NCBI RefSeq assembly: GCF_002261345.1
Contig: NZ_NEVT01000007.1
Location: 124,001 to 188,000 of the forward strand
DNA from: Bordetella genomosp. 2
GTDB lineage: Bacteria > Pseudomonadota > Gammaproteobacteria > Burkholderiales > Burkholderiaceae_B
Reading direction: 5' to 3'
DNA length: 64,000 nt
Shown here piece after piece: positions 24,556 to 61,036 of this stretch. The position numbers and the translations under genes are program-made. Under the pieces are notes generated by a model. That model was not told the origin of the DNA and did no database searches. It saw nothing but the letters and a program-made list of their open reading frames with translations. How positions within the stretch are numbered: the stretch's first letter is position 1; each line of letters begins with the position of its first letter.

Positions 24556-24717
24556 GTCGGGGCGGATGGGCGGGGCCGGCGGGGCTTCCGTGGCCGTCCG
24601 GGCGCCCAGCGCGCCCGGCACCGCATCGCTCGCCTCGTCCGGCCCCTCCGGGCCTCCCTACGGCATCCGCTCGCTCGGCCCCGAGGCGCCCCGCCGGCCC
24701 CGCCCATCCGCCCCGAC
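24556..24717 (+). repeat. Unit A1 long hairpin
   Basis: The 30-base arm at 24556-24585 (starting GTCGGGGCGGATGGGCGGGG) is perfectly complementary to 24688-24717. The 102-base loop contains a nested perfect hairpin CCGGGCGC-CCAGC-GCGCCCGG (24598-24618) and the sequence GCTCGGCCCCGAGG shared with the other units. Confidence 0.9.
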
Positions 24718-24813
24718 TCGCAACAACGCCAAACCGCCACGCCGCTGCCACCAATACCGTTCTTGCGCTTCGTCGGCCGCGCCTGGGGGGGGAGAAAAAC
24801 ATCTTGCAGGGCC

Positions 24814-24848
24814 GCGTTTTCAAGCCGCCCTGCGCGGCTTGAAAACGC
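24814..24848 (+). repeat. Unit A1 short hairpin
   Basis: GCGTTTTCAAGCCGC, loop CCTGC, GCGGCTTGAAAACGC: a perfect 15-bp stem. No T tract follows. The outer GCG and inner GCCGC are shared with other units, while the middle seven bases are specific to this copy and matched in the opposite arm. Confidence 0.9.
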
Positions 24849-25046
24849 ATTCGGGCGGGATGCGGGGTGGGTGGGTTTTCATGGACGTTGCCAAGCCCTA
24901 CCAGCCAGGCCGGTAATGGTGCGATGTGCAGATGTTGGCGCGCGTTGTCGTTATCGGGCGTCCGGAAGCTTCCAACGCTCATCGTGCAACATACGAATCA
25001 CGACCCCGTCCTTCGACACCAGCCTTTCGCCCGCCACCGGCCGAAA

Positions 25047-25081
25047 GCGTGTTCCAGCCGCGCAGGGCGGCTGGAACACGC
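25047..25081 (-). repeat. Unit A2 short hairpin
   Basis: GCGTGTTCCAGCCGC, loop GCAGG, GCGGCTGGAACACGC: a perfect 15-bp stem, differing from A1 at two stem positions with both strands changed together. Followed by CGGCCCTGCAAGATG, the complement of the patch before the A1 hairpin. Confidence 0.9.
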
Positions 25082-25178
25082 GGCCCTGCAAGATGCTTTT
25101 CTTCTCCTCGCCGCGGCCGACGAAGCCTACGAGCCCATATCGTGCCGGCGGCGTATCGAGGTTGGTCAGGTGCGAGTC

Positions 25179-25323
25179 GGGCCGTGGCGCCGGGGTGGCA
25201 GGGCGCCTCGGGGCCGAGCGAGGGAAACCGAAGGAGCGTAGCGACGAGGTTGACGAAGCGGTGCCGGGCGCTGAGGGCGCCCGGACGGCCACGGAAGCCC
25301 CGCCGCCCCCGGCGCCACGGCCC
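25179..25323 (-). repeat. Unit A2 long hairpin
   Basis: The 17-base arm GGGCCGTGGCGCCGGGG (25179-25195) pairs perfectly with 25307-25323, and pairing continues imperfectly inward. The loop carries the best-conserved core (GAGGGAAACCGAAGGAGCG and GACGAGGTTGACGAAGCGG) and the nested hairpin CCGGGCGC-TGAGG-GCGCCCGG. Confidence 0.85.
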
Positions 25324-25374
25324 AACGCCAATAGAAAGAACAGAGAACGACACCCTCCAGGCAGCCCGCGCCGA

Positions 25375-26733
25375 TCAGGTACCCGTCCGCACCTCGCCCG
25401 CCTCCGGCTCCGCCCCGGTGCTGGCGGCATCGGCGGCCACTTCCGGCCCCTGCACCACGCCCGGCTCGGGCGAAGCCATCTCCATGGTGACATCGATCTC
25501 CGGATCCACCCGCGGGTCGAGCGCCGCCGCGGCGGGCGAGCTCTGCAGGTTGTCGGGCAGCGGCACGAAATGCACCGGCGCCTCGTCCACCTGGTGCGCG
25601 CCCGTCACGCGGGCCGGCCGCACCTGCCATACCAGGACCAGCGCGCACACCGATACGAATACGTAGTACATGCTCGGCCCCGCCGCCGACATCAGCAGGC
25701 CGGCCACCATGGGCCCCAGGCACGCCCCCACCCCGTAGGTCATCAGCAGGATGGCGCTCAGGCCGACGCGGCGCTCGGGCTCGACGTGGTCGTTGGCGAA
25801 TGCCGCGCCGAGCGGATACAGCGTGAACTGGAGCACGCCGAATACGCATGACAACAGCACCAGCAGCCAGTACGGCAAGGTGAACCAGCCCCACATGGCC
25901 ACCGGCAGCAAGGCCAGCAGCAAGGCGTTGAAACGGATCAGGCCGGCGCGGTTGATGCGGTCGGACAGCCAGCCCATCGGCCATTGCGACAGCAGGCCGG
26001 CGGTCACGCCCGCGGCCACGAAGATGGCCGATTGCGAAGTCGTCATGCCGTACTTGGCGGCGTAGACGGGCGCCAGGCCGTAGAACGCGCCCGACAGGTT
26101 GCCGGCCACGAACAGCACCGTCAGCGACAGCGGCACGCGCTGGCGGAAGAAATGCAGGTCCAGCGGCGCCGGCAGCGGCGTGGGCGGGTGCGAGCGCGCC
26201 GTCACCGCGATCGGCACCAGGCACAGCACCAGGCAGGCCGCCACCAGGGTCAGCGGCCCCTGGTCGAGCGAGGCGTAGGCGGTCAGCACCAGTTGCCCCA
26301 GCACCGTGCCCAGGCCCGACACGACCATGTAGACCGAAAACACGCGGCCGCGCTGGTGGTTCTCGGTCTGCTCATTGAGCCAGCTCTCGATCACCATGAG
26401 TTCGGTCACCATGACGATGCCCGACACCAGGCGGAACAGCAGCCAGACCGGCATGTAGTCGACCAGCATCTGGGCCAGGATCATGCTGGTGGAAATGGCG
26501 GCGCACGCGACGAAGGCGCGGATGTGGCCGACGCGGATGATCAGCTTGTGGCCCAGGCGCGCGCCGCACACCAGGCCCAGGTAGTAGCCGGCGATCAGCG
26601 CGCCGATCCAGATTTCGCTGACCGATTCGGCGGTCAGCCGCAGCCCCATGTAGGTATTGAACAGGCCGGTGCCTATCAGCATCAGCAACGTCGCCAGGTA
26701 CAGCGACGAAAACGAGGAAATGGTGGATAGCAT
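25375..26733 (-). CDS. Major facilitator superfamily transporter (YcaD-like)
   Basis: 452 aa. Twelve hydrophobic helices with MFS signatures: GYYLGLVCGARLGHKLIIRVGH (split by the loop after helix 2), ESWLNEQTENHQRGRVFSVYMV after helix 4, and GWLSDRINRAGLI in the second half. The ESWLN motif is typical of the YcaD/TubC group. A Pro/Ala/Glu-rich cytoplasmic tail of about 60 residues follows the last helix. The start MLSTISS at 26733 was chosen because the first helix begins there; the frame upstream is a shadow of the peroxiredoxin gene. The substrate is unknown. Confidence 0.82.
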   Translation of the reverse strand: MLSTISSFSSLYLATLLMLIGTGLFNTYMGLRLTAESVSEIWIGALIAGYYLGLVCGARLGHKLIIRVGHIRAFVACAAISTSMILAQMLVDYMPVWLLFRLVSGIVMVTELMVIESWLNEQTENHQRGRVFSVYMVVSGLGTVLGQLVLTAYASLDQGPLTLVAACLVLCLVPIAVTARSHPPTPLPAPLDLHFFRQRVPLSLTVLFVAGNLSGAFYGLAPVYAAKYGMTTSQSAIFVAAGVTAGLLSQWPMGWLSDRINRAGLIRFNALLLALLPVAMWGWFTLPYWLLVLLSCVFGVLQFTLYPLGAAFANDHVEPERRVGLSAILLMTYGVGACLGPMVAGLLMSAAGPSMYYVFVSVCALVLVWQVRPARVTGAHQVDEAPVHFVPLPDNLQSSPAAAALDPRVDPEIDVTMEMASPEPGVVQGPEVAADAASTGAEPEAGEVRTGT

Positions 26734-26810
26734 GGGTGCGGGGAACGCCGCTCGCGTGGGCGGCGCCGCGGGCGCTGCGCGCACCCGCGGCGTACGGCAA
26801 CAACAATAGA

Positions 26811-27314
26811 CTAGATCTGCGACAGCATGGTGGCGGCGTCGCTGACTTCGAACTTGCCATGCGCCTCGATGTTCAGTTTCTTGACCACGCCGTCTTCGAG
26901 CAGGGCCGAATAGCGTTGCGAACGCACCCCCATGCCGCGCGCGTCCAGGTCGAGCTCGAGGCCCAGCGCGCGGGTCCAGTGCGCCGAGCCGTCGGCCAGC
27001 ATGCGCACCTTGCCGGCGGCCTTCTGCTCGCGGCCCCAGGCGCCCATCACGAAGGCGTCGTTGACGGCCACGCACCAGATCTCGTCCACGCCCTTGTCCT
27101 TCAGGGCCTGGGCCTGCTCGACGTAGCCGGGCAGGTGCTTGGCCGAGCAGGTGGGCGTGAAGGCGCCCGGCACGGCGAACAGGGCGATGGTCTTGCCCTT
27201 GACCAGGTCGGCGACCTGGAAGGCATTGGGGCCGAGCGCGCAGCCGTCGGCCTCGGTGTCGAAGAATTCTGTCAGGGTGCCGTCGGGCACGCGGTCGCCC
27301 ACTTTGATGGTCAT
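26811..27314 (-). CDS. Peroxiredoxin of the Prx5 (AhpE/Type II) class
   Basis: 167 aa thiol peroxidase that reduces peroxides. The peroxidatic cysteine is C56 in FAVPGAFTPTCSAKHLPGY, the standard Prx5 motif; other family blocks are CVAVNDAFVMGAWG and DARGMGVRSQRYSALLEDG. The start at 27314 (MTIKVGDRVP) has a good GGAGAGG ribosome site; an ATG six codons earlier is less likely. Divergent from a small secreted protein. Regulation is not visible. Confidence 0.9.
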   Translation of the reverse strand: MTIKVGDRVPDGTLTEFFDTEADGCALGPNAFQVADLVKGKTIALFAVPGAFTPTCSAKHLPGYVEQAQALKDKGVDEIWCVAVNDAFVMGAWGREQKAAGKVRMLADGSAHWTRALGLELDLDARGMGVRSQRYSALLEDGVVKKLNIEAHGKFEVSDAATMLSQI

Positions 27315-27503
27315 GTACCTCTCCATGTACAAGCAGAAAACGGGCGGGAATCGCCCGGCAAACCCTCATCATAGTGCCAAGTCGGACGGTTGCGGTGACG
27401 GCCGCCCGGCTGGGCGCCGGCGGGAAAGAAACACGCACAGTCTGATACGACTCCACACCGCGGCGGGGGTGCCGGCGCGGCAGGGCCTTGCCATAATGGA
27501 GCC

Positions 27504-27917
27504 ATGCGCATCCTGCTGACCACCGCCGCCGGGCTGGCCCTGGGCTGGGCCGCCCTGCCCGCCCTGGCGCAGAACCAGGCGGAATTCGATCAACTCGTGA
27601 CCACGGCCGGCGCCACCAACGGCGCCGCGCAGGCCTGCGGCGCCGCGGCGCCCGACCTGGCGCGGCACCAGGCCACGGCGCGCGCCAACCTGCAGCGCTA
27701 CGCGGCCGAGTTCGGCTATTCGGCGGCGCAATTCGACCCGCTGTTCCAGAAGGGGCGCGGCGAAGGCCAGAAAATGATGACCGACATGCGCGAGTCCGGC
27801 GTGGACGGCTGCGCCGGCATGCTGGGCAGTTTCCAGCATGAGCGCGACATCGGCTACGACGAGATGAAGGGCGCCATCGCCGAAGTCACCGACGGGCTGC
27901 CCGAGCCCAGGAAATAG
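27504..27917 (+). CDS. Small secreted protein of unknown function
   Basis: 137 aa. A clear Sec signal peptide (MRILLTTAAGLALGWAALPALA, cleavage after residue 22) precedes a mostly helical, polar mature part with two cysteines (in QACGAAAP and VDGCAGML) that could form a disulfide. I recognise no family. It ends 37 bases before the convergent stop of the DUF748 gene; the short gap holds a GC hairpin (GGCCGGCG/CGCCGGCC, 27917-27945) that may terminate transcription from either side. Confidence 0.7.
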   Translation: MRILLTTAAGLALGWAALPALAQNQAEFDQLVTTAGATNGAAQACGAAAPDLARHQATARANLQRYAAEFGYSAAQFDPLFQKGRGEGQKMMTDMRESGVDGCAGMLGSFQHERDIGYDEMKGAIAEVTDGLPEPRK

Positions 27918-27954
27918 GCCGGCGACGCGGCAAGCGCCGCCGGCCTGGCGCGCG

Positions 27955-30900
27955 TCATTGCAGCGCGAAGTCCACCCGCGACGGCGCGGCATCGCCCTCG
28001 CCCGCCGCGCCGTCTAGCTCCGGCGCCACGATGAAGATCCGGTCGGCCGGCCCGCTTTCCTGCAGCTTTTCGTACACCGCCTGGGCGCGTGCCTCGGCGA
28101 GCTGCCGCAGGTCGTCGTCGCCCACCGGCGCGGCCTCGCGCAGCAGCGCTTCCATTTGCTCGGGCGGGATCGATTTGGCGAAGCCGATGAAATTGCGCGG
28201 CTTGTTCTCGATGTCGGTGTCGTCGTAGACCTCTTCGAGGTATTCCGCCCGCTCGGCGTCGGTCAACGTGACGCCGGCCGGGTCGGGCTGCTTGCCGCGG
28301 CCGCCGCTGTCGGCCGCCTTGGCCTTGCGGATCTGCAGATCGACCCAGGCCTGCCGCAGGCCTTCCGTGTCGGTGGCCGGATCGGCGCGGCCGATGATGT
28401 CGAGCTTGAGGCCCGGGCGGTCGTTCAGGGCCTTGGCCAGGGTGGCGATGCGTTCGTCGGCCTCGGCGGCAAGCACCGCGCTGCCCGGCTCGAAGTTGAT
28501 ATAGGACAGCTCCTCGCCACCGCCGAAGGCCGACGCCAGCAGCGAGAACGGCGACGTGACCGCCTTCACGACCAGGTTGACCAGCACCCGCACGATGATG
28601 CCGCCCACCGAGAATTGCGGGTCGTCCAGCGAACCGGAGATCGGCAGGTTGATATCGATATTGCCGCGGCTGTCCTTGAGCAGCGCCACCGCCAGCATGA
28701 CGGGCAGGTCGGTGGCGTCGGGGCTGTTGGTCTTGTCGCCGAAGGTGAGCTGGTTGAGCACCACGTGGTTGCTGGCCTGCAGGGCGCGGTCTTTCAGCTT
28801 GTATTCGAGGTCCAGCGACAGCTTGCCGCGCTTGATCGGATAGCCGACGTACTTGGCCGAATAGGTGGTGAAGCGCGGCAGGTCGACGCCCTTGGCGGAC
28901 GCCTTCAGGTCGAGCGACAGGTATTCGGCGAACGGCTGCACGCTGCCGCTGATGGACAGCGGCGCGGTGCCGTAGACCCGCCCGGTGACCTTGACATTGG
29001 CCGGCTTGGGACTACGCGACGACACCGCGGACAGGCCGCCCTCGATGCGCGAGAGCTCGGCCGTGTAGTTCGGCTTGACGAAGCGGTCGGTGAAGGTCAT
29101 GCGGCCGCTCTTGAGCGTGACGCTGGCGATGGAGATGTCGGGCAGTTCGCCCGATTTGTCCGGCTGGCGCGGCGCGCGGCCGCGCGTCTGGGTGTCCTGG
29201 GTGATGGACCCGCCGGCCTGGCCCGGCTCGGCCACCAGGTCCATCACGTTCAGCCGGCCCTCGGCGCTGAGCAGGATGCGGCCGTAGAAATCGTCCAGCG
29301 TGATGTCGCCCAGGTTGGCGGCGAACTTCGCGCCGTCCATCGACACCTGCATGCCTTCCAGGCCGAGGCGCTTCCATTTGAGGAAGTCGTCGCGGTTGAC
29401 GCGGTCGGCGAGGTCGAGGCCGGTGACGTCCACGGCGCCCTGCCAGCTGGCCTTCATGGGCGCGCGGCCGGCGGCGGCGGCGAACGCGGCCTGGCCGCGC
29501 GCGCCCACCGTGACGGCGCGCACCGTGGCGTTCAGGCTGGAGGCCACATACGGCGCCAGCGAGGCCAGGTCCAGTTCCGCCAGGTCGACCTGGGTCTGCA
29601 GCGCCAGCGGCTGCGGGGTGAGCGTGCCCTTCAGGGCGAGCCGGCCATTGCCCTGGATGCCGGAGGCGTCCAGCGTGAAGGGCGTCGGCGTCGCGTCGAG
29701 CGCGAGGCGGTCGGCCGCCAGGGTGAGCTGGTCCAGGGCCAGCGCGACGGCGGGCTTGACCGATTCGTCGCGCACTGACAGTTTCGACAGGTCGGCCTTG
29801 ACGCCGGTCGCCCATACCTGCGTCGCGCCGTCTTTCTCGGCCACGTTGACGCGCGCCTGCAGGCCCAGCAGGCCATCGAGCAGTTGAATGGGCGCCTGGC
29901 TGCGCACCGCCGGGGCGAACGGCGCCAGCGCGAGGTGGCCGGCCCGCAGGTCCAGGTCGAGCGCCAGCGGGTTGAGCATCAGCGGCCCCTTGGCGCGGAT
30001 CCAGCCGCCGTCGGCGGGGTTGTCCATGGTGAGCCAGAGATGGATCGGCCGGTCCGGCGGCTGGGGGAACTGCACGTTCTCGACCGTGACCACCATGCCC
30101 GCCAGGGCGTAGTCGAGTTGCGTCGCGGCGTCGCGCAGGCGCAGGCCGAAATCGTTGATGTTGATGGCGTCGACGGAAATGCGCCAGCCGTCCGGGGCGG
30201 GGGCGGGCTGGCCGGCGTCGGCCGGCTGGGGCGCGGCCGGGGCAGCCGGCTTGGCCGCATCGGTGTGCGCCTCCGGCGCGACGGGATCGGGTTCGGCGGC
30301 GGGCGCCGGCGCGGCCACCGGCGTGGGCTTGGGCGCCGGCGCGGGCTTGGAGGCCGGCTGGCCGCCGCCCAGGGCCTGCAGCTTGTTGATGATCTCCAGC
30401 CAGTTCACCCGCTGGCTGGCGTCGCGCCGCGTGTGCGCCTGCGGCGACCAGAGCTCGACCTGTCCCACCGCCAGGCGGCGCTCGACCAGGTCGAAGGCGA
30501 TGCGGCGCACGTCCAGCGTGCTCCAGGCGAGCAGGGGCTCGCCGGAGGTTTCGCGCACGTCCAGCTGGCGCAGGCCGAGGTCGCCCACCACCTTGATGCG
30601 CGGCGCGGCATCGCGCGGCTGCTCGAACACGACCTGCAGGTCGGAATCGAGCAGCGCCCGCTCGACCTTGACCGGCAGCGGCGCGGGCCAGGCGTCGGCC
30701 CATTTTTCCAGTTCCAGGCCCTGGAACGCCACGTTCAGCGTCGAGGCCGGCACCACGTCGAACGGCCGCGCCACGCCGGTGAGGTCGAACGGGCTGCCGT
30801 TGATACGCAGGTGCACGCGCGGCTGCACGTCGATGTCGGTGGCATAGCCGAAGGTCGAGATGAAGGGCACGCCCAGCGCGATCTCGTCGACCTGCTGCTT

Positions 30901-31440
30901 GCGGCCGGTGACCCGGTCGTCCAGGCTGATGGAGCCTTCCTCGAGCACCAGGTTGTTGAGCGAGAAGCGAGGCAAGCCTTCGTCTTCGGCGTCCGGCGGC
31001 GGCCCCGGGCGGGCCGCCGCCATGTCCGCCAGCTTCTGCTGGATGTCGGAGAAATTGAAGCGGGTCACGTCTTCGCGCACCAGCGCGATGCGCGGGCGCT
31101 GCACGCGCAGCGAGTCGACCACCGGCGCGAACCAGAACAGCGACATCCAGGAAGCGCTGACATCGACCTGGCCGATGTCCAGCAGCGGCGCGGCCCCGCC
31201 GGGCTGCGCCACGGAGAGATCATGGGCGCGCACGGTGAGCGTGAAGGGATTGAAGCTGATGTCGCCCACCTGCACCTGGCGGCCCAGCAGGCCGGCCACG
31301 TCTTCGGTGAGCGCGCTGCGCAGCACCTTGGGAACTTGCCAGGCGGCGATGCCGCAGAGGATCAGGATGACGGCCAGTGTAGCCAGTAGGATTTTTCCGA
31401 TTCGCCGGGTAAACCTCAACCTGGGCATCCTGAGGGGCAT
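27955..31440 (-). CDS. Giant DUF748/AsmA-like envelope protein
   Basis: 1161 aa. A single N-terminal membrane anchor (about residues 16-34, ILLATLAVILILCG) is followed by a long periplasmic region built of repeated beta-rich AsmA/DUF748-type segments (VSASWMSLFWFAPVVDSLRVQRPRI is typical), broken near residues 360-420 by an Ala/Pro-rich linker. The C-terminus has an OmpA-like patch (INFEPGSAVLAAEADERIATLAKAL). Large AsmA-like proteins bridge inner and outer membranes and are linked to phospholipid transport. The start at 31440 was chosen for its AGGAG site at eight bases; 31428 is an alternative. Confidence 0.82.
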   Translation of the reverse strand: MPLRMPRLRFTRRIGKILLATLAVILILCGIAAWQVPKVLRSALTEDVAGLLGRQVQVGDISFNPFTLTVRAHDLSVAQPGGAAPLLDIGQVDVSASWMSLFWFAPVVDSLRVQRPRIALVREDVTRFNFSDIQQKLADMAAARPGPPPDAEDEGLPRFSLNNLVLEEGSISLDDRVTGRKQQVDEIALGVPFISTFGYATDIDVQPRVHLRINGSPFDLTGVARPFDVVPASTLNVAFQGLELEKWADAWPAPLPVKVERALLDSDLQVVFEQPRDAAPRIKVVGDLGLRQLDVRETSGEPLLAWSTLDVRRIAFDLVERRLAVGQVELWSPQAHTRRDASQRVNWLEIINKLQALGGGQPASKPAPAPKPTPVAAPAPAAEPDPVAPEAHTDAAKPAAPAAPQPADAGQPAPAPDGWRISVDAININDFGLRLRDAATQLDYALAGMVVTVENVQFPQPPDRPIHLWLTMDNPADGGWIRAKGPLMLNPLALDLDLRAGHLALAPFAPAVRSQAPIQLLDGLLGLQARVNVAEKDGATQVWATGVKADLSKLSVRDESVKPAVALALDQLTLAADRLALDATPTPFTLDASGIQGNGRLALKGTLTPQPLALQTQVDLAELDLASLAPYVASSLNATVRAVTVGARGQAAFAAAAGRAPMKASWQGAVDVTGLDLADRVNRDDFLKWKRLGLEGMQVSMDGAKFAANLGDITLDDFYGRILLSAEGRLNVMDLVAEPGQAGGSITQDTQTRGRAPRQPDKSGELPDISIASVTLKSGRMTFTDRFVKPNYTAELSRIEGGLSAVSSRSPKPANVKVTGRVYGTAPLSISGSVQPFAEYLSLDLKASAKGVDLPRFTTYSAKYVGYPIKRGKLSLDLEYKLKDRALQASNHVVLNQLTFGDKTNSPDATDLPVMLAVALLKDSRGNIDINLPISGSLDDPQFSVGGIIVRVLVNLVVKAVTSPFSLLASAFGGGEELSYINFEPGSAVLAAEADERIATLAKALNDRPGLKLDIIGRADPATDTEGLRQAWVDLQIRKAKAADSGGRGKQPDPAGVTLTDAERAEYLEEVYDDTDIENKPRNFIGFAKSIPPEQMEALLREAAPVGDDDLRQLAEARAQAVYEKLQESGPADRIFIVAPELDGAAGEGDAAPSRVDFALQ

Positions 31441-31569
31441 GCGTGATCTCCTGGTACGGGCACGGGGATTATCGCGCCCCCGGCAGAGCTCGTCTATCAT
31501 AGGGCGTGGGCGCGACGGTCCCCGCCCGAAACCGTCCCGCATTTTCAATCGTTAACATTTTTTCTGCCC

Positions 31570-32058
31570 ATGTCTTCCCCTTCTCCCACGCTCAGCCACC
31601 TGGACGAGTCCGGCCAGATCCGCATGGTCGATGTCGGCGCCAAGACCGACACCGACCGTGTCGCCATCGCGCGCGGCAGCGTGCGCATGAACGCCCAGGC
31701 CTATGCCCTGCTCACGCAGCCCGGCCAGGGCAAGGGCGAAGTGCTCAACACCGCGCGCGTGGCGGCCGTGCTGGCGGCCAAGCGCTGCGCCGAGCTCATC
31801 CCGCTGTGCCACAGCCTGCCGCTGGCCTTCGTGGGCGTGGAATTCAACCTGCACGACGCCGCCCACACCGTCGAGGTGCGCGCGACCTGCCGCACGCACT
31901 ACAAGACCGGCGTCGAAATGGAAGCCATGACAGCCTGCAGCGTGGCGGCCCTGACCATCTACGACATGTGCAAGGCCGCCGACAAGGGCATCGTGATCGA
32001 ACAGGTACGCCTTGAATACAAGGCAGGAGGTAAAAGCGGTGAGTGGCGCAACGATTAA
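31570..32058 (+). CDS. moaC: Cyclic pyranopterin monophosphate synthase
   Basis: 162 aa. MoaC acts with MoaA to make cyclic pyranopterin monophosphate, the first molybdenum-cofactor intermediate. Family blocks: LSHLDESGQIRMVDVGAKTDT, NTARVAAVLAAKRCAELIPLCHSLPL and GVEMEAMTACSVAALTIYDMCKA with the catalytic lysine/aspartate region KAADKGI. Length is normal. First gene of a moaC-moaD-moaE-moeA operon; its end overlaps moaD by 20 bases. Divergent from the DUF748 gene across 129 bases. Confidence 0.95.
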   Translation: MSSPSPTLSHLDESGQIRMVDVGAKTDTDRVAIARGSVRMNAQAYALLTQPGQGKGEVLNTARVAAVLAAKRCAELIPLCHSLPLAFVGVEFNLHDAAHTVEVRATCRTHYKTGVEMEAMTACSVAALTIYDMCKAADKGIVIEQVRLEYKAGGKSGEWRND

Positions 32059-32290: not shown

Positions 32291-32293
32291 GCC

Positions 32294-32767: not shown

Positions 32768-32788
32768 CCACCCGTCCATCCGAACCCA

Positions 32789-34006: not shown

Positions 34007-34023
34007 AGGCGGCCCGGCGGCGC

Positions 34024-46353: not shown

Positions 46354-46426
46354 GGGGGGTGGGCCCCGGGGCTTGAGATGAGGGGGGGCATCGGTGGAGG
46401 AGACAGTGGGGTTGGGTTCTTCAGGC

Positions 46427-46556
46427 GCCCGCGCATGGCGGCGGGACCCGGGCGGCCACGTCGCTCGGCTCGGGCGCGCCACCAGGCGCCCTCGGCCCCC
46501 TGCGGGGGCTGCCCTCGCTCCAACTGGCCGCCCGGGTCCCGCCGCCATGCGCGGGC
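46427..46556 (+). repeat. Structured repeat locus C, unit C1
   Basis: A 32-base arm (46427-46458, beginning GCCCGCGCATGGCGGCGGGA) is perfectly complementary to 46525-46556. The 66-base loop (46459-46524, CGTCGCTCGGCTCGGGCGCG at its start) is the exact reverse complement of the C2 loop apart from one base. Loop sequence differs from loci A and B, so C is a second subfamily. Confidence 0.9.
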
Positions 46557-46695
46557 TCGCGATGTCTCGGGTTCATACCCCGTGCCTTGTGCGGGTGTCT
46601 GGCACCTGCTTGCGGGGCAACGCCCGGGGCCTCATGCAGGTGTACCTACGTCCGCCATCGCCGACGGCTCGGCCTCGCGCATGCCGTTGCCGTGA
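46557..46695. other. Centre of repeat locus C
   Basis: 139 bases between the two inverted units. They include one half of the GGTGTC-type hairpin (GGGTGTCTGGCACC, 46593-46606). No gene is evident; the short open frames lack ribosome sites. Confidence 0.5.
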
Positions 46696-46830
46696 GTCCT
46701 GGCCGGGGCTGGGCGGTGCGGGCCGGCCAGTTGGAGCGAGGGCAGCCCCCGCAGGGGGGCCGAGGGCGCCTGGTGGCGCGCCCGAGCCGAGCGACGTGGC
46801 CGGCCCGCCCCGCCCTGCCCCGGCCAGGAC
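46696..46830 (-). repeat. Structured repeat locus C, unit C2
   Basis: A 34-base arm at 46696-46729 (starting GTCCTGGCCGGGGCTGGGCG) pairs with 46797-46830 with two mismatches. Arms share nothing with C1 except the TGGCC next to the loop, yet the 67-base loop is essentially identical to that of C1 in inverted orientation. About 100 bases of C-rich DNA separate it from the next gene. Confidence 0.88.
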
Positions 46831-46932
46831 GCCCGACGAACACCGCACTCCGCACGAAACGCCCCCCCCCACGAACCCAGACACGAAACAATCCCCCGCT
46901 GCCGCCTAAGTAAACAAAGAGAGGAACCCGCC

Positions 46933-49529: not shown

Positions 49530-49550
49530 GCAGACATCATATCGCGCAAA

Positions 49551-52925: not shown

Positions 52926-52942
52926 CCACCACGAGGCCAGCC

Positions 52943-55819
52943 ATGCTCGAAACCGTCATCAAGCGCGACCGCGACCTGGGCACTCCCGCCCGCGTGGCGG
53001 ACACGCTCGTCACCCTGACCATCGACGGCCAGCCGGTCACGGTGCCGGCAGGCACCTCCGTGATGCGCGCCGCGGCCGAAGCCGGCATCAACATCCCCAA
53101 GCCGTGCGCCACCGACAGCCTCGAGCCGTTCGGCTCGTGCCGCCTGTGCCTGGTGCAGATCGACGGGCGGCGCGGCTATCCCGCGTCGTGCACCACGCCG
53201 GCCGAGGACGGCATGGTGGTCTACACCGAGACGCCCAAGCTGCACGAGCTGCGGCGCGGCGTCATGGAGCTGTATATCTCCGACCACCCGCTCGACTGCC
53301 TGACCTGTCCGGCCAATGGCGATTGCGAGCTGCAGGACATGGCCGGCGTGGTGGGGCTGCGCGCGGTGCGCTACGGCCACGACGGCGCCAACCACCGGCA
53401 CGACCGCACCGACGACTCGAACCCGTATTTCTCGTACGACCCGTCCAAGTGCATCGTCTGCAACCGCTGCGTGCGGGCCTGCGAGGAAACCCAGGGCACG
53501 TTCGCCCTGACCATCTCCGGCAAGGGCTTCGCCTCGCGCGTGGCGGCCGGGCAGGACCAGCCGTTCCTGGACAGCGAGTGCGTGTCCTGCGGCGCCTGCG
53601 TGCAGGCCTGCCCGACCTCGACCCTGCAGGAAAAGACCGTCATCATGATGGGCCAGGCCGAGCATTCGGTGATCACCACGTGCGCGTACTGCGGCGTCGG
53701 CTGCGGCTTCAAGGCCGAAATGAAGGGCCAGGAAGTGGTGCGCATGGTGCCCTGGAAAGACGGCCAGGCCAACCGCGGGCACGCCTGTGTGAAAGGCCGC
53801 TTCGCCTGGGGCTACGCCACCCACAAGGAACGCGTGCTCAAGCCGATGATCCGCGCGCGCATCACCGACCCGTGGCGCGAAGTCTCGTGGCAGGAAGCGA
53901 TCGACTACGCGGCCGCCGAATTCCGCCGCATCCAGGCCAAGCACGGCCGCGACGCGGTCGGCGGCATCACGTCCTCGCGCTGCACCAACGAGGAAACCTG
54001 GCTGGTGCAGAAACTGGTGCGCGCCGCCTTCGGCACCAATAACGTCGACACCTGCGCGCGCGTCTGCCATTCGCCCACCGGCTATGGCCTGAAGCAGACG
54101 CTGGGCGAATCGGCCGGCACGCAGACCTTCGATTCGGTCATGCACACCGACGTGGTGATCCTGATGGGGGCCAACCCCAGCAGCGCGCATCCGGTGTTCG
54201 CCTCGCGCCTGAAGCGCCGGCTGCGCCAGGGCGCGCGGCTGATCGTCATCGACCCGCGCCGCACCGAGCTGGTCAGCTCGCCGCACGTCAAGGCCGCGTT
54301 CCACCTGCCGGTGCGCCCCGGCACCAACGTGGCGCTGCTGACCGCCATGGCGCACGTGATCGTGACGGAAGGGCTGGTCGACGAGGACTTCGTCGCGCGC
54401 CGCTGCGAAACCAAGGCCTTCGAGCAGTGGCGCGAGTTCGTCGCGCGGCCCGAGCACGCGCCCGAGGCCACCGAGGCGGTCACGGGCGTGCCGGCCGCGG
54501 ATGTGCGCGGCGCGGCGCGCCTGTACGCCACCGGCGGCAACGGCTCGATCTACTACGGGCTGGGCGTCACCGAGCACAGCCAGGGATCCACCGCGGTGAT
54601 GGCCATCGCCAACCTGGCCATGGCCACCGGCAACATCGGCCGCGAAGGCGTAGGCGTCAACCCGCTGCGCGGCCAGAACAACGTACAGGGCTCGTGCGAC
54701 ATGGGCTCGTTTCCGCACGAGCTGCCGGGCTACCGGCATATCTCGGACGACGCCGTGCGCGGCGCCTTCGAGGCCGACTGGGGCGTCACCCTGCAGCCCG
54801 AGCCCGGGCTGCGCATCCCCAACATGTTCGAGGCGGCGCTGGCCGGCAGCTTCAAGGGCCTGTACTGCCAGGGCGAGGACATCGTGCAGTCCGATCCCAA
54901 TACGCAGCACGTGGCGGCCGCGCTGGCGGCCATGGAATGCATCGTGGTCCAGGACCTGTTCCTGAACGAGACCGCCAAGTACGCGCACGTGTTCCTGCCG
55001 GGCTCGTCGTTCCTGGAAAAGGACGGCACCTTCACCAACGCCGAGCGCCGCATCTCGCGCGTGCGCAAGGTCATGGAGCCCAGGAACGGCCTGTCCGACT
55101 GGCAGGTGACCGCGGCGCTGTCGAACGCGCTGGGCTACCCCATGGACTACCGCCACCCCAGCGAGATCATGGACGAGATCGCCCGCCTGACGCCGACCTT
55201 CGCCGGCGTCACCTACGAAAAGCTGGACCGGCTCGGCAGCCTGCAATGGCCGTGCAACGACGTCGCGCCGGACGGCACGCCGATCATGCATATCGACGAA
55301 TTCGTACGCGGCAAGGGCAAGTTCATGATCACCAAGTACGTGCCCTCGGACGAACGCAGCACCCGCGAATTCCCGCTGCTGCTGACCACCGGCCGCATCC
55401 TGTCGCAGTACAACGTCGGCGCGCAGACGCGCCGCACCGCCAACGTGGCCTGGCACAGCGAGGACGTGCTCGAGATCCATCCGCAGGACGCCGAGGACCG
55501 CGGCATCGCCGAAGGCGATTGGGTCGGCGTGCACAGCCGGGCGGGCCAGACGGTGCTGCGCGCCACGCTGACCGACCGGGTGCAGCCCGGCGTGGTCTAC
55601 ACCACGTTCCACTTCCCCGAATCGGGCGCCAACGTGGTCACCACCGACAGCTCCGACTGGGCCACCAACTGCCCGGAATACAAGGTGACGGCGGTGCAGG
55701 TGATGCGCGTGACGCAGCCCTCGGAATGGCAGCGCCAGTGGTCGCGCTTTTCGGACATCCAGCACAAGCTGCTGCGCGAGCGGGCCCGCGAGGCCGAGGC
55801 CGCGCTGAGCGGCAAGTGA
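52943..55819 (+). CDS. fdsA: NAD-dependent formate dehydrogenase alpha (molybdenum catalytic) subunit
   Basis: 958 aa. N-terminal 2Fe-2S (C55, C66, C69, C83), then His/Cys cluster (HPLDCLTCPANGDC), two ferredoxin 4Fe-4S sets (CIVCNRCVRAC; CVSCGACVQAC), the Mo-domain 4Fe-4S (CAYCGVGC..C) and bis-MGD molybdenum domains. The active-site ligand is cysteine, not selenocysteine: C375 in RVCHSPTG, followed by the conserved histidine. Oxidises formate to CO2 in the cytoplasm. Starts at 52943 (MLETVIKRD). Needs the Moco genes nearby and FdhD for sulfuration. Confidence 0.96.
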   Translation: MLETVIKRDRDLGTPARVADTLVTLTIDGQPVTVPAGTSVMRAAAEAGINIPKPCATDSLEPFGSCRLCLVQIDGRRGYPASCTTPAEDGMVVYTETPKLHELRRGVMELYISDHPLDCLTCPANGDCELQDMAGVVGLRAVRYGHDGANHRHDRTDDSNPYFSYDPSKCIVCNRCVRACEETQGTFALTISGKGFASRVAAGQDQPFLDSECVSCGACVQACPTSTLQEKTVIMMGQAEHSVITTCAYCGVGCGFKAEMKGQEVVRMVPWKDGQANRGHACVKGRFAWGYATHKERVLKPMIRARITDPWREVSWQEAIDYAAAEFRRIQAKHGRDAVGGITSSRCTNEETWLVQKLVRAAFGTNNVDTCARVCHSPTGYGLKQTLGESAGTQTFDSVMHTDVVILMGANPSSAHPVFASRLKRRLRQGARLIVIDPRRTELVSSPHVKAAFHLPVRPGTNVALLTAMAHVIVTEGLVDEDFVARRCETKAFEQWREFVARPEHAPEATEAVTGVPAADVRGAARLYATGGNGSIYYGLGVTEHSQGSTAVMAIANLAMATGNIGREGVGVNPLRGQNNVQGSCDMGSFPHELPGYRHISDDAVRGAFEADWGVTLQPEPGLRIPNMFEAALAGSFKGLYCQGEDIVQSDPNTQHVAAALAAMECIVVQDLFLNETAKYAHVFLPGSSFLEKDGTFTNAERRISRVRKVMEPRNGLSDWQVTAALSNALGYPMDYRHPSEIMDEIARLTPTFAGVTYEKLDRLGSLQWPCNDVAPDGTPIMHIDEFVRGKGKFMITKYVPSDERSTREFPLLLTTGRILSQYNVGAQTRRTANVAWHSEDVLEIHPQDAEDRGIAEGDWVGVHSRAGQTVLRATLTDRVQPGVVYTTFHFPESGANVVTTDSSDWATNCPEYKVTAVQVMRVTQPSEWQRQWSRFSDIQHKLLRERAREAEAALSGK

Positions 55820-55833
55820 GCCGAGCGCGCCCC

Positions 55834-56670
55834 ATGGACGACCGCCTGTACCGCCGCCCGCCCGCCGGACGCGCCGATTGCGCCGAAGCGGCGGTGCTGC
55901 GCGTGCGCGGCGGCGCCCCCGACGCCGCCACCCAGACCGACCGGGTCGCCGAGGAAACCCCGGTGGCGCTGGAATACAACGGCATCAGCCACGCCACCAT
56001 GCTGGCCTCGCCGGCCGACCTGGAAGATTTCGCGCTGGGCTTCTCGCTGACCGAAGGCATCGTCGACCGGCCGGCCGACGTGCGCGGCATCGAGGTGGCG
56101 CCGCAGTTCAACGGCATCGTGGTGCAGATGGAGATCTCCAGCGCCTGCGCCGCGCGCCTCAAGGCGCGCCGCCGCGCCATGGCGGGCCGCACCGGCTGCG
56201 GCCTGTGCGGCGTCGAGACGCTGCCCGAAGTGCTGCGCCAGCTGCCGCCCGTGCCGGACGCCGCCGCCGTGCCGCTTGCCGCGGTGCTGGGCGCCATGCG
56301 GGCGATGCGCGGCAGCCAGGCGCTGCACGACCTCACCGGCGCCACTCACGCCGCGGCCTGGGCCGACGCCGGCGGCCAGGTGCGCCTGGTGCGCGAGGAC
56401 GTGGGCCGCCACAATGCGCTGGACAAGCTGATCGGCGCGCTGGCCCGCCAGGACGTCGACGCGCGCGCCGGCCTGGTCCTGGTATCCAGCCGCGCCAGCT
56501 ACGAGATGGTGCAGAAATGCGCCGCCGCCGGCATCGGCATCCTGGCGGCGGTATCCGCGCCCACCGCGCTGGCCATCCGCGTGGCGCAGCACACCAATGT
56601 CGCGCTGCTGGGCTTCGTGCGCAACGCCGACGCCGCCATCTATGCGCATGCCGAACGCATCCTATCCTGA
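55834..56670 (+). CDS. fdhD: Formate dehydrogenase accessory sulfurtransferase FdhD/FdsC
   Basis: 278 aa. FdhD transfers sulfur onto the molybdenum site of FdsA. Motif TGCGLCGVE (C122, C125) carries the sulfur; other blocks are EETPVALEYNGISH, EDFALGFSLTEGIV, VREDVGRHNALDKLIG and SSRASYEMVQKCAAAGI. The ATG at 55834 is 14 bases after fdsA. In Fds operons this gene is called fdsC; both names apply. Confidence 0.93.
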   Translation: MDDRLYRRPPAGRADCAEAAVLRVRGGAPDAATQTDRVAEETPVALEYNGISHATMLASPADLEDFALGFSLTEGIVDRPADVRGIEVAPQFNGIVVQMEISSACAARLKARRRAMAGRTGCGLCGVETLPEVLRQLPPVPDAAAVPLAAVLGAMRAMRGSQALHDLTGATHAAAWADAGGQVRLVREDVGRHNALDKLIGALARQDVDARAGLVLVSSRASYEMVQKCAAAGIGILAAVSAPTALAIRVAQHTNVALLGFVRNADAAIYAHAERILS

Positions 56671-56676
56671 ACGCCC

Positions 56677-56928
56677 ATGGACATCGCCAACCTGATCCGC
56701 ATGGCCAATCGCATCGGCGATTTCTTCGACGCCCTGCCCGACCGCGAAGAAGCGATCGAAGGCGTGGCCGGCCACATCCACAAGTTCTGGGAGCCCCGCA
56801 TGCGCCGCGCGCTGCTGGATTTCCTCAGCCAGCACGCCGACGGACAGGCGGGCGAGGTGCGCCTGTCCGGGCTGGTGCTGGAAGCCGTCACCCGCCACCG
56901 CGCGCGGCTCGCGCCCCGCGCCGCCTGA
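56677..56928 (+). CDS. fdsD: Formate dehydrogenase delta subunit
   Basis: 83 aa. NLIRMANRIGDFFDALPDREEAIEGVAGHIHKFWEPRMR (read in parts) matches the small FdsD protein, an assembly/stability subunit of soluble NAD-dependent formate dehydrogenases. Its place 6 bases after fdhD, in order fdsGBA-fdhD-fdsD, is the usual one. Last gene of the operon. Confidence 0.92.
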   Translation: MDIANLIRMANRIGDFFDALPDREEAIEGVAGHIHKFWEPRMRRALLDFLSQHADGQAGEVRLSGLVLEAVTRHRARLAPRAA

Positions 56929-57062
56929 GGGCGGGCGCCGGCCGGCGCGCCTGCACGGCGTCAAATGGCCCCGGGCGGGCGAAGCCGCGCCACGGCCGGC
57001 GCCGGACCCGCGCGGCACGGGAACTGCTACATTGGCGGGCCAGCCGTCCCAATGCCGCCCGC

Positions 57063-58193
57063 ATGTCCATCCCGCCCACCGTCCACTGGATCGAATCCGG
57101 CCAACCCCGTTCCGCGCTCTGGCGCTCAGAAAGCGCCGCGCCGCCGCCCGCCCGCATCCAGGTCGCCGACGACCGGCTGCGCGCCGACGCGGCCTACCGG
57201 CTGATCTGCGAAGGCACCGCGCTGCTGTGGCGCGGCGACTTCCACAACGCCCGCCAGTTGCTGCAGGCCCTGGCGCGGCGCATCGACAAGAAGCCGCGCA
57301 AGCCGGCCGACAATGCCCTGGACGCCTTCAACCGCCACCGCCAGGCGCAGTCGCAGCGCGCGCGCCTGCTGGGCAGCCTGCTGCTGTCGTTCGACGCCGA
57401 CCACGGGCTGGACCTGCGGCGCGCGCCGGACGTGCGGCAAGCCTGCCTGCAGGCCTACGGCCCGGCCGCCGGTCCGTACCTGGCATCGCTGCGCGAACTG
57501 CAGGGCGTGGTCGGCGCGCACGAGTGGCGCAGGAAAGGCGTGCCCATCCCGGCGCTGGGCGGCGCGCGCATCCATCCGCACTATGGCGTCTTCTCGCCGG
57601 TGCGCGGCGAATACCTGGACCTGGCGGCGCGCGCGCCGCTGCCGGGCGGCCAGGCCGCGCTGGCCTACGACATCGGCACCGGCACCGGCGTACTGGCCGC
57701 CGTGCTGGCGCGCCGCGGCGTCGAGCGCGTGGTCGCCACCGACCAGGGCCCGCGCGCCCTCGCCTGCGCGCGCGACAACCTCGACCGGCTGGGCCTGGGC
57801 GCGCGCGTCGAGGTCGTGCAGGCGGATCTCTTCCCGTCCGGCCAGGCGCCCCTGGTCGTCTGCAATCCGCCCTGGCTGCCGGCCCGGCCCAGCTCGCCGG
57901 TGGAGCATGCGGTCTACGACCCCGACAGCCGCATGCTGCGCGGCTTCCTGCAAGGGCTGGCGCCGCACCTGGCGCCGCGGGGCGAAGGCTGGCTGATCCT
58001 GTCGGACCTGGCCGTGCACCTGGGCCTGCGCCAGGCCGACGAAGTGCCGGCCCTGATCGCCCGGCACGGCCTGCGCGTGCTCGACCGGCTGGATGCGCGC
58101 CCGGTGCATCCGCGCGCCTCCGACCCGGACGACCCGCTGCACGCGGCGCGCGCGGCCGAGATCACGTCGCTGTGGCGGCTGGCCGCCGCCTGA
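57063..58193 (+). CDS. Class I SAM-dependent methyltransferase (NPPW type)
   Basis: 376 aa. The C-terminal half has the Rossmann methyltransferase site (LAYDIGTGTGVLAAVLARRG) and the amide-methylation motif CNPPWLP; the N-terminal 170 residues are a helical substrate-binding domain. NPPW is shared with PrmC-like N5-glutamine and 23S/16S base methyltransferases; the long N-terminus points away from classical PrmC, so the target is unknown. The start at 57063 gives MSIPPTVHW; there is no strong ribosome site. Follows fdsD by 134 bases and seems unrelated to it. Confidence 0.75.
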   Translation: MSIPPTVHWIESGQPRSALWRSESAAPPPARIQVADDRLRADAAYRLICEGTALLWRGDFHNARQLLQALARRIDKKPRKPADNALDAFNRHRQAQSQRARLLGSLLLSFDADHGLDLRRAPDVRQACLQAYGPAAGPYLASLRELQGVVGAHEWRRKGVPIPALGGARIHPHYGVFSPVRGEYLDLAARAPLPGGQAALAYDIGTGTGVLAAVLARRGVERVVATDQGPRALACARDNLDRLGLGARVEVVQADLFPSGQAPLVVCNPPWLPARPSSPVEHAVYDPDSRMLRGFLQGLAPHLAPRGEGWLILSDLAVHLGLRQADEVPALIARHGLRVLDRLDARPVHPRASDPDDPLHAARAAEITSLWRLAAA

Positions 58194-58329
58194 GCCGGCG
58201 CCCGCACAACCTCGCTGTCATGTTGGCCGCCGTCGCGGCGCGCCGTCACAGTCATGTCCTGTTGCATTCATCGCGGCGTCATCTGCGTCGTCAATCATTC
58301 CGCTTCCTTTTCCCATGGCACGCGGAACG

Positions 58330-60246
58330 ATGAAAACCTGGCAGAAAAACACGAGCGCCCTGCTGTTCGGCTCCCTGGCGCTGCTGGCCGGCTGCGGCAG
58401 CGGCAGCGATGACGACGACGATGCTCCCCCGCCATCGCCGCCGGCGGCGAGCCGGCCGATGGAGTTGACCATCCTGCACATCAACGACCATCACTCCAAC
58501 CTGGATGCCAAGTCCCGGACCTTGCAGCTCAAGAACGCCGCCGGCGCCGCCACGGCGGTGAGCGTGGACGCCGGGGGCTTCCCGCGCGTGACGGCCGCCA
58601 TCGAGGAGCTGGCGGGACAGTCGGCCAATGTACTCAAGCTGCACGCCGGCGATGCCATGACCGGCACGCTGTATTTCAACCGCGCGGGCGAACCCGGCGA
58701 AGCCGACGCGGCCCTGATGAATACGGTGTGCTTCGACGCGATGACACTGGGCAACCACGAGTTCGACAAAGGCGACAGCGGCCTGCACCGCTTCATCGAA
58801 CTGCTGCATGCCGGCGCCTGCCAGACGCCGCTCTTGAGCGCCAACGTCAGCTTTGGCGCCGACTCGCCGCTGAACCCCTCGCGCGCGCCGGGACTGGTGC
58901 AGCCGTCGATCGTCGTGCAGCGCGACGGCCAGCCGATCGGCCTGGTCGGCCTGACCATCGCCAACAAGACGCAGCAGTCGTCCAGCCCCGATCCCGGCAC
59001 CGTGTTCTCGGACGAGACCGCCGCCGCCCAGGAGCAGATCAACGCGCTGCGCGCCCAGGGCGTGAACAAGATCATCGTCATGAGCCACATCGGCTATGGC
59101 TACGACAAGCAGGTGATCGCCGGATTGAGCGGCGTGGACGTGGTGGTGGGCGGCGATTCGCATACCCTGCTGGGCCCCGACACCATGTCCGCCTATGGCG
59201 TGGGCACGCCGAGCGGCGCCTATCCGACCGAACTGACCGACAAGGACGGCAAGCGGGTCTGCCTGGTGCAAGCCAGGGAATACTCGCAAGTGGTGGGCGA
59301 GCTGAAGGTCAGCTTCGACGCCAACGGCGACGTCACCGCCTGCGCGGGCACGCCGCACGTGCTGATCGGCGACGCGCTCGAAGTCGGCGGCACCGCCCCC
59401 AACCCGGCCGACGAGGCCGCCATGCGGGCCGACATCGCCGCCAGCGGCTTCCTGCGCGTGCAGGCCCCGGACCCGGAGGCCACCGCGGTGCTGCAGCCGT
59501 ACAAGGACAAGGTCGACGCCTACAGCCAGAGCGTGGTGGCCTCGGTGCCCGAGGAACTGTGCTCGCGCCGCGTGCCCGGCGGCCCCGGCTCGGTGGATTA
59601 CGGCCGCTCCAGCGCGGCATGCAACGCGCTGGGCAGCGTCAGCGTGCGGGGCGGCGACATCCAGCAACTGGTGGCGCAAGCCTATGTGGAAGTGGCCAAC
59701 GCCCTGTACGGCGGCGCCGACATTTCGCTGCAGAGCGGCGGCGGCGTGCGCATCCCGCTGGAAGGCGAGGTGACCGCGGCCCGGGTGATCGAAGTGGTGC
59801 CGTTCGGCAACATGCTGTGGCGCCTGGACGTGACCGGCGCCGAGGTCAAGAGCATGCTGGAAGACGGCCTGCAGGCGGTCTACGGCCCGGGCGGCAGCAC
59901 CGGCCCGTACCCGTACACCGGCGGCCTGCGCTTCGACGTGAACAGCCTGCAGACCCAGGGCAACCGCGTGTCCAACGTGGAAGTGCGCGACGCCGCCACC
60001 GGCGCGTGGCAGCCGCTGGATCCGGCCCGCACCTACAAGCTGTTCGTGCTGAGCTTCAACGCCACCGGCGGCGACGGCTACAAGACCCTGGCCAACGTGC
60101 CCGCCGAACGCCGCCAGGACATCGGCGTGCTCGACGCCGACGTGCTGCAGACGTACATCGACATGCAGGCCAAGGACGCGAGCGGCTTGCCGGTGCTGCG
60201 GAAACTGCCGGTGGAGTTGTATAGCACCAAGAGCTATATCGAGTAG
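58330..60246 (+). CDS. 5'-nucleotidase/UshA-like lipoprotein
   Basis: 638 aa. A lipobox (LLAGC, Cys22) makes it a lipoprotein; an Asp-rich tract DDDDD and Pro-rich linker follow. The metallophosphoesterase domain shows LTILHINDHHSN, LHAGDAMTGTLYF, TLGNHEFDKG, VMSHIGYGYD and GGDSHTLLG; the 5'-nucleotidase C-terminal domain shows LQSGGGVRIPLEGEVT and VPFGNMLW. It should hydrolyse nucleotides or related phosphoesters at the outer membrane or periplasm, releasing phosphate and nucleoside. ATG 58330 is preferred over 58315 because GCGGAA precedes it and the signal begins there. Confidence 0.88.
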   Translation: MKTWQKNTSALLFGSLALLAGCGSGSDDDDDAPPPSPPAASRPMELTILHINDHHSNLDAKSRTLQLKNAAGAATAVSVDAGGFPRVTAAIEELAGQSANVLKLHAGDAMTGTLYFNRAGEPGEADAALMNTVCFDAMTLGNHEFDKGDSGLHRFIELLHAGACQTPLLSANVSFGADSPLNPSRAPGLVQPSIVVQRDGQPIGLVGLTIANKTQQSSSPDPGTVFSDETAAAQEQINALRAQGVNKIIVMSHIGYGYDKQVIAGLSGVDVVVGGDSHTLLGPDTMSAYGVGTPSGAYPTELTDKDGKRVCLVQAREYSQVVGELKVSFDANGDVTACAGTPHVLIGDALEVGGTAPNPADEAAMRADIAASGFLRVQAPDPEATAVLQPYKDKVDAYSQSVVASVPEELCSRRVPGGPGSVDYGRSSAACNALGSVSVRGGDIQQLVAQAYVEVANALYGGADISLQSGGGVRIPLEGEVTAARVIEVVPFGNMLWRLDVTGAEVKSMLEDGLQAVYGPGGSTGPYPYTGGLRFDVNSLQTQGNRVSNVEVRDAATGAWQPLDPARTYKLFVLSFNATGGDGYKTLANVPAERRQDIGVLDADVLQTYIDMQAKDASGLPVLRKLPVELYSTKSYIE

Positions 60247-60287
60247 GGGCGCGGTGGTGCCACGGCGGCGGTGAAAGTTCTTCTGGC

Positions 60288-60571
60288 GTCGGGGCCTGGT
60301 CCGGGGAGCGGCCGGGCTTCCGGGGCCGTCCGGGCGCCCTGCGCGCCCGGCGCCGCTTCGTCAACCTCGTCAGCCTGCGGCTTCCTTCGGTTTCCCTCGC
60401 TCGGCCCCGAGGCGCCCGGCCGCTCCCCGGACCAGGCCCCGACTCGCGCCAATGCCGATTCCACCATCGACGGGACGGTTGGGGTTCTTGAGCTTCGTGG
60501 GTGGCGCTGGGGAGGGAAGAAAAATCGTGCAGTGCCGCGAATCCGGGCCGCCCTGCGCGGCCCGGATTCGC
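60288..60571 (+). repeat. Structured repeat locus B, unit B1
   Basis: Long hairpin: the arm at 60288-60317 (starting GTCGGGGCCTGGTCCGGGGA) is perfectly complementary to 60414-60443 over 30 bases; the loop carries the nested CCGGGCGC-CCTGC-GCGCCCGG hairpin and the conserved core in reverse (CCTTCGGTTTCCCTCGC). After 93 bases comes the short hairpin GCGAATCCGGGCCGC-CCTGC-GCGGCCCGGATTCGC (60537-60571), perfect over 15 bp. Same orientation and spacing as A1. Confidence 0.9.
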
Positions 60572-60752
60572 ATTCAGGCTCGGAATGGCGGGGGGCGGAT
60601 CGGGTTTGTGTTGTTGTTGTGGCGGAGTATCGGCGCTCCCTCCGATATTGTCTGCGAGCCTTATCGGTGGCATCCGCAATACGCGGCGCATCGAACAGTT
60701 GGGTCAAGATCCACACACGCACTCAGCCCTCTCCCCGCGCCACCGCACGAAT
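60572..60752. other. Centre of repeat locus B
   Basis: 181 bases between B1 and B2, including a GTTGTTGTTGT tract (60609-60619). No similarity to the centre of locus A beyond the first few bases, and no gene. Confidence 0.5.
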
Positions 60753-61036
60753 GCGTCTGCAAGCCGCGCAGGGCGGCTTGCAGACGCGGCCCCGCAAGAC
60801 GTTCTTCTTGTCCCCCGACGCCGCGACGAAGGGCCAAGCACGCGGTCGGCCCCGGCGGCGTGGCGGGTTGCAACCGATGCGAGTCGTGGCGGGAGGCGGA
60901 GAGCCGGCGGGGCGCCTCGGGGCCGAGCGAGGGAAACCGAAGGAGCGTAGCGACGAGGTTGACGAAGCGGCGCCGGGCGCGCAGGGCGCCCGGACGGCCC
61001 CGGAAGCCCCGCCGGCTCTCCGCCTCCCGCCACGAC
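60753..61036 (-). repeat. Structured repeat locus B, unit B2
   Basis: Short hairpin GCGTCTGCAAGCCGC-GCAGG-GCGGCTTGCAGACGC (60753-60787), perfect 15 bp; then 95 bases; then a long hairpin whose 31-base arm at 60883-60913 (GTCGTGGCGGGAGGCGGAGA at its start) is perfectly complementary to 61006-61036. The 92-base loop matches A2 closely (GAGGGAAACCGAAGGAGCG; GACGAGGTTGACGAAGCGG; nested CCGGGCGC-GCAGG-GCGCCCGG). It ends 33 bases before the LysR stop. Confidence 0.9.

Follow-up and report, generated by a model that had tools for sequence, protein, structure and literature searches.

Described repeats and the two families

The repetitive extragenic palindromic (REP) sequences of bacteria are characterised as units of 20-50 nt preceded by a tetranucleotide, mostly GTAG (PMC8266576), and their compound forms, the REP doublets forming hairpins (REPINs) and the bacterial interspersed mosaic elements (BIMEs), are inverted, extragenic doublets which are present in many copies and form hairpins (PMC3116915, PMC8266576). 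Here we analysed six hairpins in a 64-kb stretch of DNA from Bordetella genomosp. 2 (contig NZ_NEVT01000007.1, positions 124,001 to 188,000; in the following referred to as the window). They are the end-pieces of small, dispersed, non-coding composite repeats of two families, U and V, and the two arms of their outer stems change in concert. The best fit, to which we assign a probability of roughly 55%, is a templated correction from arm to arm by quasi-palindrome template switching combined with the requirement for a hairpin of fixed length.

U and V are oversized REPIN/BIME-like repeats and represent a variant of a known repeat type. All 11 V composites with two detected ends as well as the two U composites of the window are inverted, convergent doublets. 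Paired, varying spacer stems had already been noted for REPINs and BIMEs in an earlier study (PMC3116915). However, the ends are conserved in REPINs and BIMEs and the spacer varies, whereas in U and V the foot and the loop are conserved and the intervening stem varies. In contrast to the short REP format, the units of U and V measure 130-165 nt, have outer stems of 30-34 bp and carry a 5' tag near GTTCTTCTGGC. Furthermore, none of the six examined loci encoding a Y1 transposase shows, for U or V, the arrangement known from REPINs, in which the gene of the REP-associated tyrosine transposase (RAYT) is flanked by the same repeat.

Similarities also exist to the CGTC-tagged REP sequences, which have a CGTC foot, occur mostly as inverted dimers often located downstream of genes and lack a dedicated transposase (PMC3733652). 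The same source assigns them a stem of 8-9 bp, a loop of 4-5 nt, an unpaired tag and a tail that is mostly CCA (PMC3733652), features not found in U and V, in which GTC pairs with GAC inside the 30-bp stem. Bor-1 (PMC2267715) and BRE (PMC3110155) are likewise dispersed, structured or intergenic repeats of Bordetella; judged by their descriptions and not by sequence, they differ from U and V in their smaller length (93-117 bp and about 90 bp, respectively). A literature search covering leading titles and openly accessible papers did not find a description of U or V. There may also be some resemblance to the integron attC sites, which are characterised by RYYYAAC/GTTRRRY ends and an integrase.

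The six hairpins form three convergent pairs, two of loop family U and one of loop family V, and the resulting composites measure about 430-790 bp with two hairpin-bearing halves facing each other. U and V have only the feet in common (5' foot near TTCTTNNGGC, 3' tail near TCGCA). A U half-element of about 300 bp consists, in this order, of the tag, the outer hairpin H1 (stem about 30 bp), the tail, a TTCTTCTGCTTCGTGGGC-like box, a stretch rich in A and the inner hairpin H2, whose 13-bp stem has ten private outer base pairs and a loop near GCCCTGCGC. The lengths of both stems are nearly constant among the parsed stems. On the minus strand of window positions 60277-60585 the tag is predicted to pair with a stretch beside H2, which would close most of the half-element. 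A third family with a similar foot (CGTC ... GGACTCACAG) and another loop was observed at about positions 560-720 of locus L210 in G005, one of the compared genomes.

The compared genomes, among them G001, G003, G004, G005 and G006, come from a set with one genome per species; L-numbers denote fetched loci. Altogether 101 unit places were found and 86 stems parsed, the 15 unparsed ones including the four U units of the window. The pairing tally covers 79 stems, seven rows having been dropped as duplicates (two of L099, and L120) or as poorly aligned (L111, L198, L208, L219).

Concerted change of the two arms

The genome containing the window has at least 29 V ends, of which 15 L-type and 14 R-type ones were aligned. 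Each of the 11 V composites with both ends detected has one L-type and one R-type end with different arms and a nearly equal loop; the arms are common to the L-type or to the R-type ends, with variants. In the L-type alignment both-side changes were detected at 11 of 32 pairs (40 cells), next to one cell with plus-strand wobble and 15 unpaired cells, and in the R-type alignment at 17 of 34 pairs (39 cells), next to no plus-strand wobble and 10 unpaired cells. Both-side changes therefore affect 28 of 66 pairs and 79 of 946 cells, as compared with 1 cell in plus-strand wobble and 25 unpaired cells; seven V cells are A.C. The covariation score was reached by none of 500 shuffles in either alignment. 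The 38 additional Watson-Crick pair types comprise 21 transitions and 17 transversions, and the diversity of the V arms (0.14-0.16) exceeds that of the loop (0.03) about 5-fold.

As a between-species control, 5S rRNA from the same bacterial family (usable sequence from 19 of 30 fetched loci) showed 18 both-side changes and 49 wobbles in 551 cells, with five transition and two transversion types. The ratio of wobble to both-side cells is 1 to 79 in V (7 to 79 on the assumption of a folded minus strand) and 49 to 18 in 5S rRNA (Fisher p about 1e-22, or 2e-17 if the seven A.C cells are counted as minus-strand wobble), p serving as a guide because the cells share ancestry. An RNase P RNA control aligned poorly, with 54% mean identity and 13 usable pairs, and was dropped.

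The nine R-type ends in G005 represent four related variants which differ at five pairs; all five are double transversions and the stems are paired at 30 of 30 positions. The 12 L-type U copies with identical 30-nt arms in the same genome differ in their spacers. A recurrent C-T at the foot of the G005 units lies outside the stem.

Between orthologs, both bases had changed with Watson-Crick pairing retained in 13 of the 183 pairs of six equal-length stems (six transversions), and one further both-side change was unpaired; simple arithmetic under independence predicts about three both-side changes, mostly unpaired. This comparison used six of seven stems, A-H1L being dropped because the alignment had slipped (the 3' arm measures 32 nt in L201). 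A wider total of ten stems (D-H1L, D-H1R, C-H1R, C-H1L, B-H1L, A-H1L, A-H1R, E-H1L, E-H1R and G-H1R) was derived from 16 comparisons, six of which (G006, L006, L192, L003-H1L, L206) were dropped due to uncertain arm orthology or alignment. A 4-bp stretch contains three paired changes between L189 and L205, and two dinucleotide blocks were detected among the orthologs.

In the 79 stems, 101 of 2460 positions are not Watson-Crick paired, in agreement with the premise of a preliminary description of the window that selection would leave some partial pairs. The 5' arm is G+T-rich in all 51 parsed U stems and in 22 of 28 parsed V stems; an excess of G-C and U-A is predicted for intrastrand template switching (PMC8794818).

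Explanations for the matched arms

The arms are inherited with the element and move with it, as indicated by their recurrence in G005 and by their specificity for L-type or R-type ends in V, as well as by the sites that lack the element. No such element was detected at the intergenic site orthologous to the first U composite of the window (composite a) in six relatives, several of which have other repeats there. The V composite is absent in three relatives, in which 8, 18 and 36 bp lie between the aligned gene parts, and a search for the syntenic site of the second U composite (composite b) in relatives found none. Filled orthologous sites are present in several relatives. Compared with nine empty-site loci, the arms of the window gave short matches alone (10-18 nt, E 0.007 or more).

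We infer the copying step and its mechanism from the scarcity of wobble in V, the double transversions and the G+T-rich 5' arm, all of which favour copying between the arms at the DNA level. When a base changes in one arm, the change would often be transferred to the other arm or be undone by it, most likely through quasi-palindrome template switching at the replication fork. The near-constant lengths suggest that the element requires a hairpin whose stem has a fixed length. The arms would then drift by jumps from one Watson-Crick pair to another, double transversions included, with the V loop remaining nearly fixed. Template switching as described in two papers likewise raises the complementarity of the arms and leads to both-side changes and to a G-C/T-A bias of the 5' arm (PMC8794818, PMC7202029). 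However, the descriptions considered here deal with rRNA, microRNA and reporter genes and not with dispersed bacterial repeats (PMC8794818, PMC7202029).

Several observations weigh against such copying. Between orthologs, changes on one side are no rarer than changes on both (17 versus 13 in the six stems, 29 versus 21 if the four gapped stems are added, and 7 versus 1 in G-H1R, the least favourable stem), and selection at the RNA level therefore stays in play. Six one-sided mismatches occur in four of the 32 stems of G005 (L211, L213, L291, L301), and the L-type arms of this genome are more conserved than their spacers, which, together with the near-constant stem lengths, implies that constraint acts too. 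The paired changes in V do not cluster (neighbouring changes: 0 versus 0.27 expected in L-type ends, 7 versus 4.6 in R-type ends, p = 0.11), and the tract footprints of template switching are weak in U and V. One inherited C-T mismatch has been kept in 7 of 14 R-type V copies, so that the correction is not very efficient. With shared cases collapsed, A.C outnumbers G.T on the plus strand by 23 to 8 (p = 0.011), from which it follows that wobble, if tolerated, is on the minus strand. Moreover, the 5S rRNA sequences were compared between species and the V ends between paralogs. The arm-to-arm copying proposed in the preliminary description gains support from a concert beyond independence between orthologs, from the double transversions in G005 and from the wobble scarcity in V, and it is the frequent one-sided changes between orthologs that weigh against it. 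Taking all this into account, copying and selection probably act together.

Compensatory evolution of a structured RNA, i.e. a 3' untranslated region or an antisense transcript whose stems are kept paired by selection alone, is a possible explanation which we regard as less convincing than arm-to-arm copying. It would be consistent with the nearly invariant length of the stems (about 30 bp in H1, 13 bp in H2), with the excess of A.C, i.e. minus-strand wobble, over G.T, with the one-sided changes between orthologs, with the position of the U tag 3' of the stop codon of a same-strand open reading frame (ORF) in 56 of 69 scored U units and with the strong predicted folding of one half-element (z about -7.9 for plus-strand DNA and minus-strand RNA alike). 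However, wobble is almost nil in V as compared with 5S rRNA, and double transversions, which make up 17 of the 38 additional pair types in V and all five differences between the R-type arms of G005, cannot go through G-U and thus count against a stepwise compensatory route. In addition, an Rfam search of the whole window at the gathering score revealed three tRNAs and nothing at the hairpins, and the element appears dispensable because orthologous sites exist without it.

It seems unlikely that gene conversion between copies, swapping whole hairpins with both arms together, accounts for the pattern. Near-identical loops across the V copies and the occurrence of the variants at columns 16 and 18 of the L-type alignment in all four combinations would fit an exchange of this kind, which should, however, render the arms as uniform as the loops, yet it is the arms of V that are the more diverse. 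Orthologous stems furthermore change at single pairs within otherwise kept arms, and conversion leaves the origin of new paired states unexplained.

As to the mode of movement, which we infer likewise, there is a rather improbable scenario in which the elements move as single-stranded DNA via an enzyme and hairpin-primed synthesis rebuilds one arm with each move; if true, mobility itself would renew and rewrite the arms. An inspection by eye for target-site duplications resolved none.

The preliminary description had also considered that a loop inserts and duplicates its host flank in inverted orientation, with which the mutually unrelated appearance of the U arms in their own genome would agree. 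This model cannot produce the same arms at 12 different places of G005, arms specific to L or R ends, feet conserved outside the arms and empty sites without the arms, and it is refuted for the copies examined. The orthologous empty sites, found for two of the three composites, contain neither arm beyond short chance-level matches. On present evidence a new kind of mobile behaviour is not supported.

The composites of the window, their surroundings and their significance

The genome containing the window comprises 5.02 Mb in nine contigs, and its closest relative in a protein search, among the matches listed, was Bordetella petrii MY10, with 85% identity over the best segment. Inverted repeats that match perfectly over 20 bp or more and enclose a loop of up to 400 nt form six groups in the window. 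Four of them correspond to the stems of the hairpins U1 (30 bp), V1 (32 bp), U3 (30 bp) and U4 (31 bp), and the remaining two (48 and 35 bp) are pairings of V1 with V2; the stems of U2 and V2 fall below 20 perfect bp under this rule. With the length lowered to 14 bp, 157 inverted repeats were found, as compared with 0-4 in each of 20 simulations of 64 kb. The six hairpins are real and exceed chance.

The repeat search and the reading of the sequence confirmed the places of the six inverted repeats in the preliminary description. Its single conserved loop turned out to be two, shared by four U units and two V units, respectively, and conserved within each family. The arms are perfect in four of the six hairpins, and they are private to each copy in U within its own genome but shared among L-type or R-type ends in V. 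In addition, each U unit of the window has the second, 13-bp hairpin with private arms, which had not been listed.

U composite a (24546..25336) is flanked by two convergent genes and consists of two convergent half-elements. U1 comprises the outer hairpin H1 (24556..24717, plus strand), which has a perfect 30-bp stem and a structured 102-nt loop, and the inner hairpin H2 (24814..24848, plus strand) with a private arm on its 13-bp stem and the loop GCCCTGCGC. U2 on the minus strand comprises H2 (25047..25081) and an imperfect H1 (25176..25326) with wobble, an indel and mismatches. The V composite (46416..46841), flanked by two codirectional genes, combines the L-type end V1 (46427..46556, plus strand; 32-bp perfect stem) with the R-type end V2 (46696..46830, minus strand), in which the stem of 34 pairs has two mismatches. 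U composite b (60277..61047) is flanked by the 3' ends of a 5'-nucleotidase-like and a LysR-like gene. It contains U3 on the plus strand (H1, 60288..60443, 30-bp perfect stem; H2, 60537..60571) and U4 on the minus strand (H2, 60753..60787; H1, 60883..61036, 31-bp perfect stem).

The tags of the window lie 20 nt (U1), 37 nt (U2), 30 nt (U3), 22 nt (U4) and 62 nt (V1) 3' of a stop codon, while the tag of V2 faces a gene start. The scoring of the U tags, which applied a crude ORF rule and kept a few duplicates, started from 72 units, two of which were unscorable and one of which had too little flank. For V the tag lies 3' of a same-strand stop codon in 17 of 29 units, and in U and V the distances from stop codon to tag range from 3 to 159 nt apart from one at 531 nt. 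No intrinsic terminator, the hallmark of which is a GC-rich hairpin with a T run right behind it, was predicted at H1 or H2 of the two U composites by a scan which covers loops of 3-8 nt and thus poorly covers H1 and the 9-nt loop of H2; according to the sequence no T run directly follows either hairpin.

A Y1_Tnp gene was detected in six of nine genomes examined. The comparison of the 101 unit contexts with the six Y1 transposase loci revealed GGTGTC-type repeats beside units or matches of 18-44 nt and no U or V hairpins. The sole Y1 transposase gene found in the own genome is flanked by another repeat, GGTGTCTGACACC. At L149 (G000:C8:92268-92594) a RAYT-like Y1 transposase gene lies amid GGTGTCAGACACC/GGTGTCTGACACC repeats, and this repeat is nested inside many U and V composites, e.g. 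in the interiors of L189, L190, L205 and L133. The Y1 gene of G004 (L144) is located at an intergenic site at which G003 and G001 carry U composites (L195, L203), and in three genomes (L145, L147, L148) the gene beside the Y1 transposase is related to the gene beside a U composite of G005 (L216). A landing-site preference or a lost link could be behind these shared neighbourhoods.

The two U halves of L211, which are spaced by 2 kb, were considered as an autonomous version, but the listed ORFs and the sequence contain no recognisable transposase, no family search having been made. Several TTTCACGTGAAAC-like boxes, putative parS sites, lie between these halves (1120-1960).

The U query matches at least 13 of 250 genomes of the bacterial family, comprising all nine covered from the own genus and four of one other genus, a lower bound given that two candidates were scored per genome. 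One intergenic site (L182, L193, L202) is occupied by a V element in the own genome and by a U composite in two relatives, so that such gaps look like repeated landing places. In the region orthologous to U composite a, L124 and L126 have another repeat (CCACCCCCGAAGCGCTACGCGCTT...) in its place, which may be the published BRE.

It has long been asked, and much studied in rRNA, how both bases of a stem pair can be replaced with no broken intermediate. U and V constitute a class of structured repeats, with family U located mostly just behind stop codons, and offer many copies of a 30-bp stem, orthologous sites with and without the element and paralogs that are nearly identical. Arm-to-arm copying thereby becomes measurable in a bacterium instead of being merely inferred, and the two families lend themselves to testing, in a natural setting, how the arms of palindromes stay matched.

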